Shown here one piece after another: positions 2,511 to 20,741 of a stretch of 21,302 nucleotides of DNA. The notes below the pieces were generated by a model. That model did no database searches. It saw only the letters and a program-made list of their open reading frames with translations, and was not told where the DNA came from. The DNA is taken from positions 1-21,302 of the IMG/VR virus record IMGVR_UViG_3300025120_013547. One strand, written 5' to 3'. The position numbers were made by a program, and so were the translations under genes. Within the stretch, counting starts at the first letter, position 1, and each line of letters opens with the position of its first letter. This DNA comes from a virus.

Positions 2511-2518
2511 GAAACAAA

Positions 2519-2525
2519 CTAAATA
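2519..2525 (+). promoter_or_regulatory. Candidate T4-type late promoter element before the 674-residue protein gene
   Basis: CTAAATA lies in the 22-base gap after gp17 and ends exactly 7 bases before the next ATG, the same geometry as at gp17. No Shine-Dalgarno sequence is present. It probably directs late transcription of the downstream gene, or of both genes as staggered messages. The match is short. Confidence 0.35.
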
Positions 2526-9269: not shown

Positions 9270-9882
9270 AGGTGAACGATTTCTAGATAAGTGTCTCACA
9301 ACAACAGTAAACTTACAACCGTGGCCGCACCAAATCATCAACGACACATTAAGTCAAGAGGCCTTTGCAAAGCTGAAGGACAGTTGCTTCAAAACAACAT
9401 TGACCAAGACAACAGAACTACATCATATCTTTCCAGATCAATACAGAGACTGGGGCATAGACTTCTACGATGAAACTGTGGACATATGCACCAACCTGTT
9501 GAGAAAAATAAAAGAACTTGTTGGAGTTTATCCAGCAAGTAGATCATATGAGAATCTAGGAGTGAATGCACACATATCTATAACCCCGCCACTGCCATAC
9601 AAGTTCCATGTACATCAAGAAGGTCTGGAAAAAATATGGAGTTCAGTGACTTACATCACACCTGAGAAGAATATTGGGACAAAGATGTATACCAAACAAA
9701 CAGAGAAATCGTTTGTCAGTGAAGCTCCATGGATTCCTAACAGCACATTTATATTTTGTGGACAAGAAGGTCAAACATGGCATTCATATGAAAGCGATCA
9801 AAAATGCAACAGGATCACATTGAATCTTTTTATACAAAAGACACGTAAAAAAAAATGTTTTATGGAGTTTTCTGATCTTTAA
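9262..9882 (+). CDS. 2OG-Fe(II) oxygenase-like protein with an HxE metal motif
   Basis: Family members hydroxylate small molecules, amino-acid residues or sugars using Fe(II), oxygen and 2-oxoglutarate. This 206-residue protein aligns by pattern with the canonical oxygenase gene at 15622. H118-Q-E120 lies before the 'EKIWSSVTYI' strand where that protein has H143-I-D145 before 'MEMWAGLLYM'. The distal His is H174 in TWHSYES, and R184 (NRITLNLF) would bind 2-oxoglutarate. Glu replacing Asp in HxD is known in the superfamily but less common. AAAGG lies 11 bases before the ATG and the start overlaps the previous gene by 8 bases. Its 3' end overlaps the convergent gene by 23 bases. Confidence 0.75.
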   Translation: MSEGERFLDKCLTTTVNLQPWPHQIINDTLSQEAFAKLKDSCFKTTLTKTTELHHIFPDQYRDWGIDFYDETVDICTNLLRKIKELVGVYPASRSYENLGVNAHISITPPLPYKFHVHQEGLEKIWSSVTYITPEKNIGTKMYTKQTEKSFVSEAPWIPNSTFIFCGQEGQTWHSYESDQKCNRITLNLFIQKTRKKKCFMEFSDL

Positions 9883-10576
9883 TAAAATCTTGTAGAGCGT
9901 TGATGTCTGCATTAAGATGTCTTTGCTTTACCTTATCCCAAACAAAGTTATCCCTGTTGTTGATGTTTAGGTGTGTACGCACCTGCTTACCTGTATCGTC
10001 AAACATCTTCTTTGCCTTGAACACAACAGTTGGCAAATAGAGGCATCTTCCTAACTTACGTGCAACTTTCTGTGTGTACGAATCAACATGCCAGTGCCAA
10101 AAGAAAGGTGGAGCCAAGTAGCCTAGTGTGTTAATCCAATTTTTGTGTACAGCAAAGTGTGCCGCGGGTAATGGATTGTCTGGCCATAGTTTTATTTTAT
10201 CTTTTAGGTTCAGTGTGCCTTTTGTTCTACCGTCACTAGGTACAACCATTAGAATCTTGTCCTTGTATTCGTCTATTTGCTTTTTTATTTTTTCATCCCA
10301 TCCTGTTGTTTGCACTTGCACATCGTCGCCCATTAACATCATGATATCGTGTTTAGCTTTCCCGGCCATAAGATTCCAACTGTAACAAGTGGATTGATTT
10401 GGACCAACAGTATAATGCTTTTCGTCCAACAGATCCTTGTACTTTTCTAATGCAGGGTCGTCATCGTTGAGATAGAAAAGAAATTCAGTTTCACCTTGCT
10501 GTGTAGATGTCGCTGTGTCGACCAGGCGCTTTGCTAGTTCGGGCCTGCCCCTCGACGGACAACAAAAAGAAATCAT
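9860..10576 (-). CDS. GT-A fold glycosyltransferase (GT2-like)
   Basis: The N terminus, ISFCCPSRGRPELAKRL, is the usual first strand and loop of GT-A enzymes that bind a nucleotide sugar. NDDD (37-40) follows the second strand, and IMMLMGDDVQ (78-87) carries the metal-binding acidic pair D84-D85. The aromatic, His-rich segment FFWHWHVD (158-165) probably lies by the acceptor site. A frame six codons longer starts at 10594, but the ATG at 10576 forms a 4-base ATGA overlap with the epimerase gene and begins directly at the first strand, giving 238 residues. It is the last gene of the minus-strand operon. Sugar and acceptor are unknown. Confidence 0.82.
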   Translation of the reverse strand: MISFCCPSRGRPELAKRLVDTATSTQQGETEFLFYLNDDDPALEKYKDLLDEKHYTVGPNQSTCYSWNLMAGKAKHDIMMLMGDDVQVQTTGWDEKIKKQIDEYKDKILMVVPSDGRTKGTLNLKDKIKLWPDNPLPAAHFAVHKNWINTLGYLAPPFFWHWHVDSYTQKVARKLGRCLYLPTVVFKAKKMFDDTGKQVRTHLNINNRDNFVWDKVKQRHLNADINALQDFIKDQKTP

Positions 10577-11577
10577 ATTAGCTTGTTCTTCCAAGTCTCT
10601 GGGGTCTTGTCGTTTATAATTTCTAAAGGTAAATGATACTGAAACTTCTTTGTACCTCTGGTTCTAATGTACTCGGCTGTCTTTTTAACCGACTGTCGCA
10701 TATTGATTGCCGTGCTGTAACCTAATAGTTCTCTTGCTTTGTCCGATGAACACACTGCTAGTTTAACTTCTTTGGGTCTATCTTTATGGTGTATTGGATC
10801 TAAATTAATTCCTGTTTCGTTAGCACAGGCCTCTGCTAACTCGTTGATCGTTATAGGTTCTTCGTCTGGTCCGATATTAATGACTTCTCCAATCACATTA
10901 TCTTGGAATGCAAGTGCATTCAAACAATACAAGCAATCATCAATGTAACTGAAACATCGTTGCTGTTCTCCATCTCCGTATATGATGGGTTGTTTGCCTT
11001 GTAACATCCTGTTCAACATTATGGACATCACATTCCGGAACGGGTCATCATACTTCTGTCTCGGTCCAACAATGTTGTGTGGCACGGCGATAACATATTC
11101 TACCCCGTGTGTTTCGCACAAATTTCTTAGCACATCCTCACCGGCCTTCTTTGCGATACCATATGGATCCTGTGGACGACACTCATAATCTTCCTTGTAC
11201 GGCATCTTGTCATGGTGCCCATACCTTGCCATGCTCGAACAATACACAATACGTTTTACTCGATTTCTTATTGCCGCTGTGATTGTTGTGACTGACGCTT
11301 CGAATATATTTCTTGTGACAAGCACTGGGGAGAACACAGACAGTCCTTCGTAGGCAGTAGCGGCGGTGTGATACACTATGTCACAACCTTCCATGGCTTT
11401 GGTCATGTTCTCTAGATCACAACAGTCTACCTGGTGGAACTCCACGTCCTGTGGAACGTTATCTGCGTAACCACCGATCATGTTGTCATTGCCGGCAACA
11501 GTGTGACCTTCTGATAGCATTAGGTCTGCTAGGTGTGACCCTAGGAATCCTGCGACACCTGTTATGAAAATCTTCAT
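10573..11577 (-). CDS. NAD-dependent sugar-nucleotide epimerase/dehydratase (extended SDR)
   Basis: It is likely to convert one nucleotide sugar into another (for example a 4-epimerisation of UDP-Glc, UDP-GlcNAc or a uronate form). The Rossmann motif GVAGFLG occupies residues 7-13. The catalytic set is S114/S115 with YGIAK (Y139, K143). Substrate-binding patterns typical of extended SDRs follow: PHNIVGPRQ (166-174) and GDGEQQRCFSYIDD (201-214). The 334-residue length is normal for the family. No sugar nucleotidyltransferase is present in the window, so the substrate is presumably taken from the host pool. The gene begins 4 bases after the FkbM stop, without a clear ribosome site, and is probably translated by coupling. 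Exact substrate cannot be read from the sequence. Confidence 0.92.
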   Translation of the reverse strand: MKIFITGVAGFLGSHLADLMLSEGHTVAGNDNMIGGYADNVPQDVEFHQVDCCDLENMTKAMEGCDIVYHTAATAYEGLSVFSPVLVTRNIFEASVTTITAAIRNRVKRIVYCSSMARYGHHDKMPYKEDYECRPQDPYGIAKKAGEDVLRNLCETHGVEYVIAVPHNIVGPRQKYDDPFRNVMSIMLNRMLQGKQPIIYGDGEQQRCFSYIDDCLYCLNALAFQDNVIGEVINIGPDEEPITINELAEACANETGINLDPIHHKDRPKEVKLAVCSSDKARELLGYSTAINMRQSVKKTAEYIRTRGTKKFQYHLPLEIINDKTPETWKNKLI

Positions 11578-11581
11578 ATGT

Positions 11582-12220
11582 CTATTTACTTTTACCTTTT
11601 TTACGCCACACTACATCCGGCCAAACCTTGATCATGATTTCAAATCCAGTTTTTCTTAGATGTTTTTCAATTTCTAGATTACTGCTACCATATTTTTTTG
11701 AATTATTATTCAGTTCTATCATTAGATAGTCAACATTTTTCAACGTATTCCCAGCACCTTTGAGAACTTCCATTTCAAAGCCTTCAACATCGATCTTGAT
11801 TAAATCAACATCATCGAGATTCAAGCTGTCTATGGTTACCATGGGTATGGTGCCGTCTCCCATTACACGTTTTGCCTGTGTGAAATTATCTTCAGACAAT
11901 GATATCATTTTTTCTTCATTGCCCACTGCGAGTTGATGTGTTTCAACATCTTCGGGACAATTCTTCACAAGGCATTCGTAATGAACGGGGTCTGGTTCAA
12001 AAGCTATCACTCTCCCACAAAACCCATTCATGGCCATGGTCCATGTGCCCACCCATGCTCCGATGTCTAGCACATGGTTGAACTTTATATCTTTACTGTT
12101 GCAGTGTATGATAAGTTTTTCGAGACACTTGTTCTGTGTAAAATTTTTATCTTTTTTCCAATCCTCGATGTGTACATCGTTTGACGGTACCCAGAATCCA
12201 TTAATTTTTTCAATAGACAT
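11582..12220 (-). CDS. FkbM-family SAM-dependent methyltransferase
   Basis: FkbM-family enzymes O-methylate sugars and other secondary-metabolite hydroxyls. The 212-residue protein has the SAM-binding glycine-rich motif DIGAWVGTW (52-60), the acidic motif II FEPDP (74-78), and the family's characteristic IKIDVEGFEMEVLKG (141-155), followed by YLMIELN (165-171). AAAGGA lies 8 bases before the ATG and supports the start. It overlaps the upstream SGNH-like gene by 11 bases. In this cluster it probably methylates a glycan produced by the neighbouring transferases. Confidence 0.9.
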   Translation of the reverse strand: MSIEKINGFWVPSNDVHIEDWKKDKNFTQNKCLEKLIIHCNSKDIKFNHVLDIGAWVGTWTMAMNGFCGRVIAFEPDPVHYECLVKNCPEDVETHQLAVGNEEKMISLSEDNFTQAKRVMGDGTIPMVTIDSLNLDDVDLIKIDVEGFEMEVLKGAGNTLKNVDYLMIELNNNSKKYGSSNLEIEKHLRKTGFEIMIKVWPDVVWRKKGKSK

Positions 12221-12983
12221 TCCATATATCCTTTACAAGAGGTTGCAATATGTCTGCCCATTCCCGCTGTCCAACTACATTTGGATGTTCATCTAAATCC
12301 GAAACAACAAATTTATTTTTGAGACACCAGCCATGTTGGGTCTCATCAAAACTACCTTGTAGTTTATAAAAGCGTTTTTGGTCTACTTGTTCCAACAGCC
12401 TTCTACACTCATTGGTTCGTGGTCTATCAAATCCATTGTACAGTGCGTTGAACATCAAGTATGGAGTCTTGTTCAGTTTTAGAAACGACTGCATGTAGAG
12501 TATTTGCAGAGCGGTTCTGATCTGTCCATCGGCCTCCAGTGCCGGTGAGTAGTGTGTGTCTCCGTCATGTATCCATGGAGTGAATGGTAGATCCTTGTAC
12601 TTGGGAGGTGATAGCGGATCAACCATCTTCCATGTGTGCCAGTGTGTGTTACTACGAGAGGTTGTCAGTGCCTCACGCCTGTTGTAACTGGTGAGTCCTA
12701 TCAACACAAAGGTCTTCTTTAATTTAACCTGTGGCAATCTACGTACTATCATCTCGTTGCTGACTCCGTTGTCTGCAATTTTAAAAAAATCAGCACCTAG
12801 TTTCTTAGCCAGCACTGATCCACACGTGTGCGGAGCTTCGGCCCTTACACCGTATTTTTTTTTGAAAGTACTTTTGTTCGCAATATTAGTCGCACGTGCA
12901 CCAGATTCAATTCCCTTGATATAATCCGGGACACCATTGCCCATTGCGAAAGAACATCCGAAGTGTATTAATTTTTTTTTCAT
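12210..12983 (-). CDS. SGNH/GDSL-like hydrolase-fold protein
   Basis: SGNH enzymes are esterases or acyl-transfer enzymes, often acting on O-acetylated glycans. The blocks can be read in order: block I HFGCSF (Ser11), block II ADNGVSNE (Gly73, Asn76), block III LIGLTSYNR (94-102), and block V DLDEHPN with Asp231 and His233 completing a Ser-Asp-His triad. At 257 residues it is slightly longer than a minimal SGNH domain, with an insert rich in His, Trp and Pro at about 110-150. There is no signal peptide, so it acts in the cytoplasm. AAGGGA lies 8 bases before the ATG, which overlaps the preceding stop codon as TAATG. A second, diverged copy is two genes upstream. Confidence 0.75.
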   Translation of the reverse strand: MKKKLIHFGCSFAMGNGVPDYIKGIESGARATNIANKSTFKKKYGVRAEAPHTCGSVLAKKLGADFFKIADNGVSNEMIVRRLPQVKLKKTFVLIGLTSYNRREALTTSRSNTHWHTWKMVDPLSPPKYKDLPFTPWIHDGDTHYSPALEADGQIRTALQILYMQSFLKLNKTPYLMFNALYNGFDRPRTNECRRLLEQVDQKRFYKLQGSFDETQHGWCLKNKFVVSDLDEHPNVVGQREWADILQPLVKDIWNVY

Positions 12984-13795
12984 TACAATATTCCCTTGTC
13001 CATTAGTATCTCAACTGCCTTACCATTCTCAAACTCCTCCGGCGTGAACTGTTGGTATGCCAAACTATACAACCATTCTTCAGCACCAACAAAGAAAGGA
13101 TCCTCTATGTCTGCCAGTTCTTGTCCTGCAATCTCCTTGGCAAAACTCTTGTTATCAGCAATAGTCGGTATACCCATGCACTGTGCTTCTATGGCCGCTA
13201 TCGAACAACTTGTCACCAGACACCAAGCATCCTTCAGGTCTTCTGCCAATGGTACCTTTGCCTCACTTGGTCCTGACGTTCCCCTGCCACGTGGTTTCTC
13301 TCTTATTCTAATCGGTCTGTCTGTGTACCTTTTGATTTGTTCCACAGTTTCCTCTAACCAGTTGGGTCTGTCTAAGTAATTGTGTATGCTGTCCGAGCTC
13401 GGACACACCAATACGTAAGATCCCTTGAAGTTTGGTGCTTTTATTTTCATGCCAAACTTATCAAACCTATCAGACTTACAGTCTCTGATGTAGCTGGCAT
13501 GTATCTTATTCCTACATATACGCCAGTAGTGATTGTCAGGCTTTAGATCGTTGTTGTCAAACCTTCCAAAGTACGGTGTATCTGTGAACCAGTACTGATG
13601 TTTGCGTTCTTCTAATTTCTTGACCATCTGCATGTTGTTGTTCACAAATCCCCAATACATGGAATTTGCCAAGGGTTCTGTTGCGACATTGTTGTCTAGG
13701 ATATTAACCTGCTCGGGCCATGACTGCTTGACACCATCAAACACTTCCCATGCCTTGCTCTTCTTGTTGTTAAATGGTGCGTAGATTGTTAACAT
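12983..13795 (-). CDS. GT-B/KpsC-like glycosyltransferase, copy 1 of 3
   Basis: The protein (270 residues) looks like the C-terminal half of a GT-B enzyme of the capsule-type (KpsC/KpsS, CDP-glycerol transferase) kind. Markers are SYVLVCPSS (126-134), a strand with IREKPRG (164-170), VTSCSIAAIEA (194-204), GIPT (208-211) and DIEDP (229-233). The ending has the pattern LAYQQFTPEEF (245-255). The genes at 16389 and 18002 share the same blocks, with VTFNSS or VTHNST in place of VTSCS. The alternative is a non-catalytic relative that binds glycans. Ribosome site AAGGA lies 8 bases before the ATG, and the gene overlaps its upstream neighbour by 26 bases. There is no signal peptide or membrane segment. 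Confidence 0.72.
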   Translation of the reverse strand: MLTIYAPFNNKKSKAWEVFDGVKQSWPEQVNILDNNVATEPLANSMYWGFVNNNMQMVKKLEERKHQYWFTDTPYFGRFDNNDLKPDNHYWRICRNKIHASYIRDCKSDRFDKFGMKIKAPNFKGSYVLVCPSSDSIHNYLDRPNWLEETVEQIKRYTDRPIRIREKPRGRGTSGPSEAKVPLAEDLKDAWCLVTSCSIAAIEAQCMGIPTIADNKSFAKEIAGQELADIEDPFFVGAEEWLYSLAYQQFTPEEFENGKAVEILMDKGIL

Positions 13796-14471
13796 CTATG
13801 AATTCCTTAAGCTGGTTAGCCCAATCCCTATGTCCTATTGCAGACGGATGCCAATCGCCGGGTGAGCAGTGTTGATTATGTTTTTCAGTATAGTCCTTGT
13901 GCGATGTGTCTGGTTTGTAATATCTTGTCATGTCAATTGACCTAAAAAGTGCTTTTACATCATCTGATTTGGCTTTTATTTCTGTGTCGGATATTGTTTT
14001 GTACATAACGTATGGATATTTTTTGACTTTGAAATAGTTCTGTAAATTGACTGCGGCTTCTATTGATTCATACTGCATCATTTCGTCCATATCCAAATTG
14101 CCTGTATTGAAAAGGTATTTGAAGAATTTTTGTGTATTCGTGTTTATGTGCGGCTTGTAAGTTCTCCATGCTGTTGAAAGTTCAGGAAATTTATTTTTCT
14201 TATATCCATCAGTTGTTGGGAAGTCAAATCTCTGTCCCGACGTGATACCTATCACAAAAAAACATTTCTTGGCCAACTCTACGTTTCTCTCGCACCAAAC
14301 TTTTGTGCTCACGCTGAGTCTCTTGTTGCCACGACCGCCACCGCCCATGTGACGTGCTGTTTCTAGGTCCATTATCTCGGCTAGTTCCATTCCAACGTGT
14401 GTGTTCACACCTTCCTTGGGTCTCTGGGTTAGGAATGAACATCCGTTGGTAAAAATATGAGTGGGTTGCAT
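13770..14471 (-). CDS. SGNH-like hydrolase-fold protein, second copy
   Basis: The product has 233 residues and the same block order as the gene at 12210. Block I is NGCSF (Ser12), the block II region is GGGGRGNKR (43-51, Gly48-Asn49), block III is VIGITSGQR (73-81), and block V is GDWHPS (Asp206, His208), followed by a shared IGHRDWA (compare VGQREWA in the other copy). The two are clear paralogues but differ in the middle. It is the first gene of the minus-strand operon. The start lies 5 bases past the palindromic promoter without a ribosome site. The likely role is ester formation or removal on a glycan; a purely structural role cannot be excluded. Confidence 0.75.
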   Translation of the reverse strand: MQPTHIFTNGCSFLTQRPKEGVNTHVGMELAEIMDLETARHMGGGGRGNKRLSVSTKVWCERNVELAKKCFFVIGITSGQRFDFPTTDGYKKNKFPELSTAWRTYKPHINTNTQKFFKYLFNTGNLDMDEMMQYESIEAAVNLQNYFKVKKYPYVMYKTISDTEIKAKSDDVKALFRSIDMTRYYKPDTSHKDYTEKHNQHCSPGDWHPSAIGHRDWANQLKEFIDVNNLRTI

Positions 14472-14476
14472 AATAA

Positions 14477-14490
14477 TATAATTAATTATA
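14477..14490. promoter_or_regulatory. Perfect 14-bp palindrome forming divergent promoters
   Basis: TATAATTAATTATA reads identically on both strands, so it provides a TATAAT -10 box and a TATAATTA sequence (seven of eight matches to the T4 late promoter) in each direction. It lies exactly in the gap between the minus-strand operon (ATG at 14471) and the plus-strand operon (ATG at 14505). A poor -35 (TTGCGC on the minus strand, 14513-14508) is 17 bases away. Late-type or simple -10-driven expression of both glycan operons from one site is likely. Confidence 0.6.
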
Positions 14491-14504
14491 CACTAAAGAC
14501 ACCC

Positions 14505-15602
14505 ATGGCGCAACTTGTAAAAAACATTACCAGCATAAAATATTTCTTGGACAAGCATGATATAGTTGATCCATCCTACGATATCAACATGAATTATCAT
14601 TCTAAAGCACCAGACAGTAAATGGAAAAGTTTACCAACTTTTGTTGCAGAATTCAACAACTGCACAGTAAACAGTTTGCCCGTGCTAGTCACAGAAGACA
14701 GACACATGGTCACAGAACATGTTTGGCCCATGCTGGATAGGTACAAGAAAAAAGGAAAGAAACATCACGGACTGTGGGACAAATGGGATGATGAGATCAA
14801 CATCAACATGCCACCGGTGACCAAGCAGTTCAATGACGAAGACAAATATGTGTGGTTGCCCATAGACAAGCACAGCACAGGCAATCCATGGCACATATGG
14901 ATTGATATCATCAGTAAGTTCAGATTGGTAGAGAAGAGGTGGAGAAATAACTTTACGAAATACATTTACATACTTGCCAATCCTAGTCCATACTTTGACA
15001 AGGTGGCAAAAGAGTTTTTCCCTAATTTAAAATACTATGTGATGCCACCGGGAGAGACATGGAAGTTCCAACATCTAATAGTGCCGTCCATGAGTAACTG
15101 CCAAGACGGAGTAGTAACTCCAAACTTACCACCATGGCTACGGCACTTCAAAGGATCATTTGGAATACCCGAGACACAAAAGCCATTCAGGAAAATATTT
15201 GTATCACGCGATAAAGCACATACTAGAAAATTAAACAATGCCGGAGAACTGTTAATGGCGCTGAAAGGTTGGGAAAATGTAATACTCGAGGACTTGCCAA
15301 TAAGAGAACAGGTCAAAGTATTTGCGGAAGCAACTCATGTACTGTCAACACACGGAGCCGGACTGGTCAACATCCTATGGTGTAAAGAAGGAACTAAAAT
15401 TATAGAATTGCAAGATGTAAAAATGTTGCACAAGAAAGTGTATCCGTTATTGTCACACAGCTTAAAATTAAAACACGAACTCTATGTTGCAAAAACAATA
15501 CCAATATCTCGTGGCGGTAAAAAACCAAAAGGAGTGAAAAGACTTAATGATCTAATAAATTTTGATGTAAACATTCCTGATTTGATTAGACATCTAGACT
15601 GA
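14505..15602 (+). CDS. Glycosyltransferase family 61-like protein
   Basis: GT61 enzymes transfer xylose, GlcNAc or arabinose units. The C-terminal half has the family's hallmark order: FRKIFVSRDKAHTRKLNNAGEL around residues 228-249, then ILEDLPIREQVKVFAEA, then STHGAGLVNILWCKEG with the conserved HGAG, then KIIEL. The N-terminal 150 residues are variable, as in other members. A longer frame begins at 14457. That ATG overlaps the divergent gene and lies upstream of the promoter palindrome, so the ATG at 14505 (365 residues) is preferred. There is no strong ribosome site. It is the first gene of the plus-strand glycan operon. Confidence 0.87.
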   Translation: MAQLVKNITSIKYFLDKHDIVDPSYDINMNYHSKAPDSKWKSLPTFVAEFNNCTVNSLPVLVTEDRHMVTEHVWPMLDRYKKKGKKHHGLWDKWDDEININMPPVTKQFNDEDKYVWLPIDKHSTGNPWHIWIDIISKFRLVEKRWRNNFTKYIYILANPSPYFDKVAKEFFPNLKYYVMPPGETWKFQHLIVPSMSNCQDGVVTPNLPPWLRHFKGSFGIPETQKPFRKIFVSRDKAHTRKLNNAGELLMALKGWENVILEDLPIREQVKVFAEATHVLSTHGAGLVNILWCKEGTKIIELQDVKMLHKKVYPLLSHSLKLKHELYVAKTIPISRGGKKPKGVKRLNDLINFDVNIPDLIRHLD

Positions 15603-15609
15603 TATCAAT

Positions 15610-15616
15610 TATAATA
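15610..15616 (+). promoter_or_regulatory. Possible internal -10 or late-type element
   Basis: TATAATA lies in the 19-base gap before the oxygenase gene, 5 bases before its ATG, and no Shine-Dalgarno sequence is present. It matches TATAAT exactly, but short AT matches are common here. Confidence 0.25.
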
Positions 15617-15621
15617 TAACC

Positions 15622-16389
15622 ATGTATTCATTGTTACAGAAAAAACCAACAGTACAGACAGATCCTTACCCACATGTGATCATAGAAGACGCCTTACCAT
15701 GGGATCTCTACGAGGCACTGGAAAACAGTTTTCCGGAAGGCATGGTCATGCAACAACAAAATGCCTACGATGATGGAATCTGTTTTAGGCTGAAAGCAGA
15801 TAAACTACTGGATCCAACAGGTAGTGTGCCCGGAGTATGGAAAGAATTCACACGTTATCACACATCTGCAGAATGGTTCAACCAAGTGAACGAACTATTC
15901 AGACCTTATATGCCAAACGTGCTACACAAAACATTTACAGAGGATGACTTGGGTGCAAGGGGTTGGGCCGACGAAAATAAAAATATATGGACTGATTGTC
16001 AATTGGTCATGCACAAACCCATAGAAGACAGGACCACACGTACACCTCACATAGACAATCCAATGGAGATGTGGGCAGGACTATTGTATATGCCATGTTC
16101 AAACGATCAAAGCACCGGTGGAGAATTTCAAATTTACTCGACACAGTCCAGTGTGCATAAAGTTGACAAGAAAGCGGGAAGGCAAATTTACGACAGTGAT
16201 CTCGGCACGGTGGTCAAAACAATACCTTACAAGAGGAACACGTTTGTGATGTTTGCAAACAACTCACCAAACACTGTACACGGTGTATCTCTGAGGCAAG
16301 ATGCAACACTAAACAGGAGAAGTGTCAACATAATTGGTGAATTCAAAAGAGGTTACGCAACAATGTACAATGTGCAGGAAGTGAAATAA
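15622..16389 (+). CDS. 2OG-Fe(II) oxygenase (prolyl-4-hydroxylase-like), complete active site
   Basis: The 255-residue protein has a full non-haem iron site: H143-I-D145 in TPHIDNP and the distal H220 in NTVHGVS, with R232/R233 positioned to bind 2-oxoglutarate. GGEFQIY (166-172) is the typical strand after the HxD loop, and NTFVMFANN (206-214) precedes the distal His. It should hydroxylate a residue or a sugar. It follows the GT61 gene by 19 bases and overlaps the next start as TAATG. Similar enzymes are common in marine T4-like phages, where substrates are mostly unknown. Here a glycan or a glycosylated protein is the natural guess. Confidence 0.9.
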   Translation: MYSLLQKKPTVQTDPYPHVIIEDALPWDLYEALENSFPEGMVMQQQNAYDDGICFRLKADKLLDPTGSVPGVWKEFTRYHTSAEWFNQVNELFRPYMPNVLHKTFTEDDLGARGWADENKNIWTDCQLVMHKPIEDRTTRTPHIDNPMEMWAGLLYMPCSNDQSTGGEFQIYSTQSSVHKVDKKAGRQIYDSDLGTVVKTIPYKRNTFVMFANNSPNTVHGVSLRQDATLNRRSVNIIGEFKRGYATMYNVQEVK

Positions 16390-17204
16390 TGAACTACGCT
16401 GTGAGGACTGAAAGGCCCAACACTGAAAAATATGTTGAGAGTGCGTCGAGGGGAATGGCAAACTGTAAACTCACTAACTACGAGACAGTGTTAAGCACGA
16501 CCGACTTTGATAAAGTTGTGTTCATGGGAGTGTTACGTGGTACCCATTTGGTCTACAAACATTGCCAAGATAATAAAAAAGATTTCTACTACATAGACAG
16601 ACCTTACTGGGGAGAAAGCAGGGCGACCCCGTACTGGATGAGGTGTGTGAAGAATCAACATGTCAAGACATTCGTTGATCACAGACCAGATGATCGATTC
16701 AAACAGCAGTTCAAAGATCCCATAACACCTTTCCACAAGAATGGATCGTATGTGTTGGTGGTACCACCAAGCCATGCCATGGCGGAGATGTTTGACGGCA
16801 AGGACTGGCTAGACAACACAATGAAAGTATTAAAAGAGAACACAGACAGAGAGATTATTGTGAGAGAGAAACCCTACAATCCCAAAGCAGTGATAGATGG
16901 AGAGGGAAAAATGATTCCTGGTACAAGTGCAAACAACAAACCACCCAAACCGTTTGAATGGGATAAGGTCCATGCTGTTGTGACTTTTAATAGTTCTATA
17001 TCGATCAAGGCACTCACCAATGGTGTGCCTGCGTTTGCCAACTTTGACAATCCTTGTATGCCTGTGTGCGAACAGGACTTCTCAAAGATAGAAACACCGA
17101 GATACGAGGATCCGAGACCTGTGTTGAACAGTCTTGCCTACAACCAATTCACACAGGAAGAATTCAGGAGCGGATACTACATGGAGATATTAGATGGCAG
17201 ATAA
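16389..17204 (+). CDS. GT-B/KpsC-like glycosyltransferase, copy 2 of 3
   Basis: This 271-residue paralogue of the minus-strand gene at 12983 matches it through most of its length. FYYIDRPYWG corresponds to YWFTDTPYFG, YWMRCVKNQ to YWRICRNKI, SYVLVVPPS to SYVLVCPSS, and VREKP to IREKP. VTFNSSISIKA and GVPAF correspond to VTSCSIAAIEA and GIPTI, and the ends share LAYNQFTQEEF and LAYQQFTPEEF. The N-S-S core resembles the T-x-N-S motif of capsule-type GT-B enzymes. A 15-residue Lys-Pro-Asn-rich insertion separates the two halves. Ribosome site AGGA lies 9 bases before the ATG. Function is inferred from family resemblance. Confidence 0.75.
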   Translation: MNYAVRTERPNTEKYVESASRGMANCKLTNYETVLSTTDFDKVVFMGVLRGTHLVYKHCQDNKKDFYYIDRPYWGESRATPYWMRCVKNQHVKTFVDHRPDDRFKQQFKDPITPFHKNGSYVLVVPPSHAMAEMFDGKDWLDNTMKVLKENTDREIIVREKPYNPKAVIDGEGKMIPGTSANNKPPKPFEWDKVHAVVTFNSSISIKALTNGVPAFANFDNPCMPVCEQDFSKIETPRYEDPRPVLNSLAYNQFTQEEFRSGYYMEILDGR

Positions 17205-18986: not shown

Positions 18987-20741
18987 ATGTGTGGCATTTA
19001 TGGAATAACAGCAAAGGATCCAGAGTTTATACAAAGCTTCATAGATATTTGTAAGCACAGAGGACCAGATGGAGAAAGTGTTTGGACATCTGACACAGTA
19101 ACTTTAGGACACAATCTTTTAAGTATAATGGCATCACCGGACCAGTCACAACAGCCGTGGAAGACACCCAAGGGCAACATGCTTGTGTATAATGGGGAAA
19201 TATTCAACTATTACGAATTAAAACAGAAACACACAAACTTTGTGGACACGACAGGATGTGACACAGAATTACTTGCATGGGGATTAGATACATTTGGTTT
19301 AAACTTTATTGATGAGATAGATTCAATGCATGGTTTCGCATACTACGAAGTGGCCAAAAAACAAATCACTCTGAGTAGGGATCATGCCGGTATCAAACCT
19401 GTGTACTATGCAGAAATAGACCAAGGACTAGTGTTTGGATCCGAGATAAAAGGCATGCTTGATAAAGTTCCGGGCTCACACACAGTTGATAAACTGGCCA
19501 TGAGTTGCCTTGCATACACGGGGATCAATGCCACACGTAACACTTGTTTTAGTGGGATAAAAAAACTGTTGGCTGGTGAGACTAAAGTTTACAACATAGC
19601 AAATAAAAAATTTATAGAAACAAAAAGAATATTCATAAAGCCAACAAGCGATCATTACTTTGCTCCTATTGAGTTTAAGAAAATGGCAAAGAAGACTGTG
19701 GAGATGTGTAGCATAGGACAAAGGAAGATAGGTGTGTTCTTAAGTGGTGGTCTAGATTCAAGTCTAATTGCACATGAGCTAAACAAATTAAAAAAGCCTG
19801 CTGTAACATTTACGAATATGATGAGACCAAATATCGTAACAGAGGAAGATTTCAATAGCGATGCGAATGCGGCCGGAGAGCTGGCAAAGGTAGAAGGCTA
19901 TCAACACCTGGTGGTTAAAGTCACACCAGATACTGTCGTAAACAGTTGGAATGATTCAATATACTACATGGAGCAACCCATGTACAACCAGAGTGTTGCC
20001 ATGTACTACTACACGAACAAAGTTCTGCACGACAACAGTATAGTGGTCACAATGGCCGGAGACATGGGGGACGAGATACTGGGCGGATATCCCAAGTATT
20101 GGAAATTAAAGCAGGCAGAATATCTTGAAAGAATGATTGGCAAGAAACGAATAGAATCGTGGGACGATGTGTTAACATTATGGATGCTGAGAATCAAACG
20201 TCCACTGGCAGGATTCATGATGGGTGGTACTCTTTCAAAGAAAGATGTATTTGAAGAACTAAAGAAATGCTATCCGGATGACTTGTGGAATCCCAAAGAT
20301 CCTGTAGCTTCTTACATGGCACTGGACTGTGTCACACAGGTACCGGAGGAGTTCTTTATGAGAAATGATAAATTTGGAATGGCATTTGGCATGGAAGGAA
20401 GATTCCCTTTGGCAACAAAGATGTTTATGCAGTACTGCATGAGTATACCTAGTTTCCAAAAAATTGGGATTGAAAAGTTTCAAACAAAATTACCTACTAA
20501 AAGAGCCTATGAAAATGTATTGCCAGAGATAATAATTAAAAAGGAAAAAACGGGTTGGACAGTGCCGCTGGGCTATTGGTTAACAAAAGGCCGAAGCACA
20601 AGGCTAACTGATTTTTACAACAATGCATTAAAAGATAAGGGCGTCCTGGGTATAATAAAGGCCAGTGCCAAAGCAGGGAAGTCGTTGGTGCCATCGTGGA
20701 TAGTAAGTGATTGGATAAAAAAATATAAAATGAAAATATGA
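18987..20741 (+). CDS. Asparagine synthase-type glutamine amidotransferase
   Basis: This type of enzyme hydrolyses glutamine and uses the ammonia and ATP to amidate a carboxylate. The N-terminal Ntn glutaminase domain has catalytic Cys2 directly after Met1, HRGPDG (24-29), NGEIFN (69-74) and SRDHAGIKPVYY (130-141). The synthetase domain has the ATP pyrophosphatase loop SGGLDSS (253-259) and the later GDMGDEILGGY. At 584 residues it is full length and all key residues are present. In glycan clusters, members of this family amidate uronic acids or similar sugars instead of making asparagine, and the neighbours here favour that reading. AGGA lies 7 bases before the ATG, and the gene ends in an ATGA junction. 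Confidence 0.93.
   Translation: MCGIYGITAKDPEFIQSFIDICKHRGPDGESVWTSDTVTLGHNLLSIMASPDQSQQPWKTPKGNMLVYNGEIFNYYELKQKHTNFVDTTGCDTELLAWGLDTFGLNFIDEIDSMHGFAYYEVAKKQITLSRDHAGIKPVYYAEIDQGLVFGSEIKGMLDKVPGSHTVDKLAMSCLAYTGINATRNTCFSGIKKLLAGETKVYNIANKKFIETKRIFIKPTSDHYFAPIEFKKMAKKTVEMCSIGQRKIGVFLSGGLDSSLIAHELNKLKKPAVTFTNMMRPNIVTEEDFNSDANAAGELAKVEGYQHLVVKVTPDTVVNSWNDSIYYMEQPMYNQSVAMYYYTNKVLHDNSIVVTMAGDMGDEILGGYPKYWKLKQAEYLERMIGKKRIESWDDVLTLWMLRIKRPLAGFMMGGTLSKKDVFEELKKCYPDDLWNPKDPVASYMALDCVTQVPEEFFMRNDKFGMAFGMEGRFPLATKMFMQYCMSIPSFQKIGIEKFQTKLPTKRAYENVLPEIIIKKEKTGWTVPLGYWLTKGRSTRLTDFYNNALKDKGVLGIIKASAKAGKSLVPSWIVSDWIKKYKMKI

Follow-up and report, generated by a model that had tools for sequence, protein, structure and literature searches.

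The locus described here raises the question of how two blocks of genes that diverge from a very short piece of DNA might be transcribed, and of what a perfect palindrome is doing between them. The window, i.e., the whole 21,302-nt (21-kb) stretch of DNA that was analyzed, comes from a T4-like phage, with terminase, gp32 and UvsX matched by Pfam and PHROG. Its minus block (9860-14471) and its plus block (from 14505) diverge from start codons at 14471 and 14505, respectively, which leave a gap of 33 nt (14472-14504). We consider it fairly probable that the palindrome in this gap represents a pair of opposed -10 boxes of the host (sigma70) type, one per strand, forming a candidate bidirectional promoter whose symmetry would be a by-product of short-leader promoters in a lineage of probable SAR11 phages.

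Opposed -10 boxes between divergent glycan genes

The 14-bp palindrome, TATAATTAATTATA, is perfect, falls inside the gap between the start codons and carries one TATAAT per strand, just as an earlier note on this DNA had described it (Table 1). That note had also called the flanking blocks glycan operons. The first gene on the plus strand is indeed a glycosyltransferase and a nucleotide-sugar epimerase is encoded in the minus block; the label is a fair one, though the first minus protein found no family match in Pfam or PHROG. A longer plus ORF starting from an ATG at 14457 is unlikely, as the closest relatives align from the residue at 14505. A DNA search of a phage collection with positions 13500-16500 returned no match, and neither did protein searches of this collection with both flanking proteins.

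It is the position of the palindrome that is remarkable and not its length alone, because the whole window holds four palindromes of at least 14 bp where shuffles average 1.3 (maximum 4). The other three, perfect as well and 14-16 bp long (13390-13405, 16755-16770 and 20427-20440), each lie within a gene. When the 33-nt gap itself was shuffled, a palindrome of at least 14 bp arose in 126 of 20000 shuffles (0.6%). With up to two mismatches allowed, the window gave two matches to TATAATTAATTATA against a shuffle mean of 0.13, and the exact 14-mer was found in none of eight named phage genomes.

Table 1. Genes, boxes and predicted promoters of the window, in window positions; scores are matches to consensus.
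Feature	Position	Strand	Details
Minus glycan operon, first gene	13770..14471	-	233 aa; N-terminal FTNGCSF
Plus operon, first gene: a family 61 glycosyltransferase (GT61)	14505..15602	+	Pfam PF04577, E 9.4e-19
Palindrome TATAATTAATTATA, 14 bp	14477..14490		Perfect; opposed TATAAT boxes with 2 bases between them; single exact copy in the window
Minus -10 box TATAAT	14485..14490	-	Ends 13 nt before ATG 14471; predicted start ~14478, leader ~7 nt
Weak -35-like TTGCGC	14508..14513	-	3/6; 17-nt spacer to the minus -10 box
Plus -10 box TATAAT	14477..14482	+	22 nt before ATG 14505; predicted start ~14489, leader ~16 nt
Competing plus promoter TTGGTA-17-CATAAT	14446..14474	+	9/12; 2 nt upstream of the palindrome
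Internal promoter TAGACA-17-TATAAT	15587..15615	+	11/12; ends 6 nt before ATG 15622; predicted leaderless
T4-late-type ACTAAATA	2518..2525	+	Ends 7 nt before ATG 2533; predicted leaderless

Judged by sequence, the box facing the minus block appears well supported and the plus box less so. With leaders and starts predicted from the standard -7 position relative to the -10 box, the minus message would have the very short leader that the earlier note had expected, about 7 nt. With its -10 box 13 nt from the ATG, i.e., outside a range of 5-8 nt, and with no Shine-Dalgarno (SD) sequence, the minus gene of the window is predicted to be short-leadered rather than leaderless. Its -10 box is a 6/6 match, and its -35-like hexamer lies in the first codons of the plus gene, where conservation may be coding. 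Better -35 elements than this one face the minus gene in L028 (TTGGCA-17) and in G001, a 196-kb contig holding the relative L062, whose orthologue of the minus gene (43% identity) has TTGCAA-17-TATAAT 9 nt before its ATG. For the plus TATAAT, no -35 was found at 16-18 nt, the best hexamer being ATATGA (2/6). The earlier statement that the palindrome gives the same -10 box to both strands, thus, stands as far as the two opposed boxes are concerned, but the plus one comes without a -35 and has a CATAAT rival that outscores it (9/12 vs. 8/12).

Conservation of the junction among relatives

A comparison with viral contigs that encode a relative of the plus protein (best 80 of 180) gave, together with the window, 81 loci with 63 distinct junctions. 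The minus start was recognized with a wide pattern in 60 of these, and L046, L049 and L066 were left out of the minus counts. A TAATTAT or ATAATTA word was found within 60 nt before the plus gene in all 80 relatives kept (the best 80 of 180). The palindrome was rejected as the conserved unit, since the exact 14-mer occurs in just 9 of the 81 loci, or 8 of the 63 distinct junctions, and the dyad is mostly no better than in shuffles: the longest palindrome was of 6 bp in 1 junction, 8 bp in 25, 10 bp in 19, 12 bp in 9 and 14 bp in 9, the dyad length of the median junction was equaled by 21% of shuffles, and 17 of the 63 junctions reached the 5% level. The inner 12 bp were present in 13 of the 63.

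It is the -10 boxes that are conserved instead. A 6/6 TATAAT on the minus strand was present in 58 of the 63 junctions against 16.3 in shuffles, and on the plus strand in 25 against 19, a small excess. Opposed -10 pairs of at least 5/6 each, with implied starts 7-25 bp apart, were found in all 63 junctions against 46 in shuffles, the AT-rich gap making -10-like words cheap, and pairs of 6/6 on both strands in 22 against 3.9. Absence of the palindrome from homologous junctions, which the earlier note regarded as fatal to its proposal, is true of the 14-mer (missing in 55 of 63) and not of the opposed -10 boxes. No SD-like sequence was found before the plus gene in any of the 63 junctions or before the minus gene in any of the 60. 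The minus -10 and -35 scores added up to 9-11 of 12 in 58 of the 60 junctions. The best minus -10 box lies 5-6 nt before the ATG in 4 of these, 8-9 nt in 40 and 13-20 nt in 16; binned differently, the spacing is 5-8 nt in 30, exactly 9 nt in 14 and 5-9 nt in 44. The window with its 13 nt is outside the 5-8 nt peak, like the 16 of 60 junctions with at least 13 nt.

The imbalance between the strands (58 vs. 25 of 63) bears on the alternative of a one-way promoter, in which only the minus TATAAT of the palindrome works, the plus operon is transcribed from TTGGTA-17-CATAAT or by read-through, and the mirrored half is due to chance. This alternative is possible but doubtful. It draws on that imbalance and on the score of the CATAAT promoter, 9/12 as compared to 8/12 for a plus TATAAT with a -35 of 2/6, but the CATAAT is missing in L016, L019, L020 and L024. 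Furthermore, a 6/6 plus TATAAT is retained in 12 of the 13 junctions that hold the 12-bp core, despite shifts of 3 nt in some; the minus TATAAT is present in all 13. Even with a one-way palindrome, mutual exclusion of the two polymerases would remain.

Binding of the palindrome by a dimeric regulator of both operons is improbable. An AT-rich dyad between divergent operons would suit such an operator, and ATAATTAT, present in 49 of the 63 junctions, is rare across G001 (8 sites including the junction, against 29 for the reversed word) and recurs at a second divergent junction, in many of its copies. However, conservation does not extend to the symmetry of the dyad, as 26 of the 63 junctions have no palindrome longer than 8 bp, and a shared operator joining the two junctions was rejected, as the likeness between them is not significant, 4-34% of shuffles attaining the alignment scores of the six junctions tried. 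The second divergent junction (L010 11483-11536, L012 13822-13885 and others) has a canonical promoter sequence, TTGACT-16-TATAAT, with a strongly conserved spacer, mostly with AATAATTATC downstream.

A pair of T4-type late or middle promoters, read by a phage gp55-like sigma or by MotA/AsiA, is very improbable: G001 does have a gp55-like sigma (E 4.2e-25), TATAAATA-type words are enriched in its gene gaps and TATAATTA is one base away from TATAAATA, but neither a TATAAATA-type box nor the late motif [AC]TAAATA (within 80 nt, either strand) was found in any of the 63 junctions, and searches for MotA and AsiA, which detected both in T4, gave no match in the relative G001, the Pelagibacter phage HTVC008M or Syn9.

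In the bidirectional reading that we favor, a polymerase would bind the junction in one direction or the other and never in both at once, making exclusion possible. Transcription toward the minus gene would begin about 7 nt before the ATG, a distance that shrinks to 0-3 nt in most relatives; the plus start would fall about 16 nt before its own ATG. The bacterial bidirectional promoters of Warman, Grainger and co-workers likewise have opposed -10 elements on short DNA between divergent genes. Opposed overlapping or adjacent -10 boxes are present in the window, 6/6 on both strands. The window differs from these promoters in belonging to a phage, in its near-leaderless minus message (predicted) and in a predicted start separation of 11 bp and not 18. 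According to one study, divergent starts of bidirectional promoters lie 7-25 bp apart, a range that includes the separation predicted here, and an 18-bp arrangement with shared -7/-11 positions is the commonest and not obligatory (PMC10268837); with its predicted 11 bp the window does not have that arrangement. Several -10 pairings are possible at most junctions, many of them with implied starts 7-16 bp apart, and the geometry varies by lineage, with pairings that imply a separation of 18 bp in L052, 21 bp in L032 and 23 bp in L051. TATTATA, found in 30 of the 63 junctions, gives starts 18 bp apart where it is on both strands, e.g., in L052. For five bidirectional promoters of E. coli, a second study reports little competition at basal activity, which is too low for exclusion to matter, and competition only upon strong activation of one direction (PMC12825309); forced competition between the two operons, as the earlier note proposed, is by this measure not a given.

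Predicted promoters close to start codons in several phages

The spacing between promoters and start codons was counted genome-wide, with genes taken as the longest ORF from the first ATG, promoters as consensus matches, and genes with less than 90 nt upstream excluded. The late motif was [ACGT][AC]TAAATA within 52 nt before the ATG; sigma70-type promoters had to score at least 10/12, TTG being required, within 60 nt before the ATG. The counts covered 180 of 196 kb of S-PM2, 220 of 287 kb of PA5oct and 140 of 141 kb each of Mosig and Melnitz. The nine counted contigs of the lineage of the window are not independent of each other; G003, G004, G005, G008 and G009 were counted up to their last 1-7 kb, and G007 entered the searches and not the DNA counts.

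The results showed that, among genes with a late motif within 52 nt, the motif lies 5-8 nt before the ATG in 16 of 35 in G001 (chance ~0.16) and in 14 of 23 in HTVC008M, 11 of them at exactly 5 nt, with 7 of 31 in Mosig and 3 of 31 in Melnitz, a phage of Methylophilales. The five controls together gave 4 of 140 (T4 0/26, Syn9 0/24, S-PM2 0/29, P-SSM4 3/32, PA5oct 1/29; Fisher test of G001 vs. controls, 6.7e-10). Among other contigs of the lineage, there were no such late cases in G004 (0/2), G006 (0/3) or G008 (0/2). Sigma70-type boxes lie at 5-8 nt in 11 of 27 genes in G001 against 2 of 69 in the controls (7.9e-6), with 1 of 9 and no peak in HTVC008M, 3 of 13 in Mosig and 3 of 20 in Melnitz. 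The late-type short spacing is, thus, strongest in G001 and the SAR11 phages, and the early-type one in the lineage of the window. In G001, an SD-like sequence was found at 1 of the 16 late and none of the 11 sigma70-type genes with the box at 5-8 nt, as compared to 11 of 17 and 7 of 12, respectively, where the box is at least 13 nt away. In the stretch of HTVC008M that was compared, the deposited gene starts agree with 9 of 9 short-spaced late cases. The G001 genes with a box within 9 nt that were scanned whole against PHROGs include, for the late type (8 of 17 scanned), tail tube, baseplate wedge and virion structural proteins, and, for the sigma70 type (8 of 12 scanned), helicase, primase, endonuclease and Nudix hydrolase, and also a portal protein.

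Examples of both types lie in the window away from the junction (Table 1). The internal sigma70-type promoter precedes a gene at ATG 15622 that is 2OG-Fe(II) oxygenase-like, with a Pfam match below the family's cut-off. Among 60 distinct sequences of relatives at this site, 13 have TATAAT 6-7 nt and 4 have TAAAAT 5-6 nt before the ATG; 42 of the remaining 43 leave no gap there, their following ATG being at the stop codon. The G001 orthologue of the gene at 2533 (66% identity) has AATAAATA 6 nt before its ATG.

These counts suggest that a lineage of T4-like phages may set promoters of the early and the late type alike 5-8 nt before many ATGs, with no SD there. If promoters are tied to the start codon in this way, divergent genes 26-40 nt apart would, therefore, have overlapping promoters, of which the palindrome of the window may be the sigma70-type version and a gap of HTVC008M (L139; 18917-18942) the late-type version. 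Like the window, the latter has opposed abutting promoters in a tiny divergent gap and no leader room; it differs in its late-type boxes and in its genes. Two T4-late boxes, each 5 nt from an ATG, fill its 26 nt, and the genes are annotated as DNA end protector and head closure. The contig L167 has an apparently late-type analogue at 12735-12764, a gap whose two divergent ATGs are preceded by TATAAATA at 7 nt and by TGTAAATA at 5 nt, respectively. Divergent late promoters of T4 itself (e.g., genes 4/53, T4 77338-77384) are likewise opposed in short gaps. In contrast to the sigma70-type boxes and the 33-nt gap with no SD of the window, they are of the TATAAATA type, in three gaps of 47-50 nt and with boxes 12-28 nt from the ATGs. 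We lean, if only slightly, toward the wider view that T4-superfamily SAR11 phages (the lineage of the window, HTVC008M and, in part, Mosig) have rebuilt their promoters so that starts fall at or near the ATG, amounting to a virus-wide leaderless switch for many genes that would affect late genes in all three and early genes at least in the lineage of the window, with overlapping, palindrome-like promoters between divergent genes as its geometric consequence.

A probable SAR11 host and predicted short leaders

The host of the phage is probably SAR11, because among the best 80 of 113 epimerase loci found in cellular genomes 79 are from Pelagibacterales (59-64% identity). The remaining locus, L167 (96% protein identity), was assigned to a Verrucomicrobia MAG (TMED56) but evidently belongs to a phage, since its contig aligns with the window over a large part of its length, with DNA identity of 65-79% over matched stretches and 76% over the epimerase stretch. 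ATAATTAT is found at the junction of this contig too. In a check of whether the short spacing comes from the host, the SAR11 genome pieces (L168-L246; 79 loci, 1420 genes) showed no clear peak at 5-8 nt, with 5 cases against 2 in a control of one shuffle per gene. At 9-12 nt, these pieces have an excess of sigma70-type boxes (13 vs. 5), and all 13 lie at 11 nt and are possibly orthologous copies. By a crude test, an SD-like sequence precedes only 229 of the 1420 SAR11 genes.

Middle and late messages of the Thermus phage P23-45 are leaderless. What is predicted for this lineage of probable SAR11 phages resembles the leaderless transcription of bacteria, of archaea and of certain phages in that a box is fixed a few bases before the ATG with no SD. 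The lineage differs from known systems in that leaderless starts are predicted here, from the DNA alone, for phages of the T4 superfamily and at both early-type and late-type promoters. The AR9 paper describes phage transcripts as ‘often leaderless’, and the word ‘leaderless’ occurs only in the title of a reference in the accessible parts of the Melnitz, Mosig, marine methylation and Klebsiella phage papers. Among the matches listed by our literature search, no title or beginning of an abstract mentions leaderless promoters in T4-like marine phages; most subscription literature lies outside this search, and novelty is unproven.

The rule to which the palindrome leads is that the position of the promoter and the start codon are apparently locked together in these ocean phages. 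If messages begin at the AUG, the ribosomes of the infected host must be efficient at translating leaderless mRNA, and, if the rule is true, gene starts would be predictable from promoters and strand-switch points would be compact two-way promoters.
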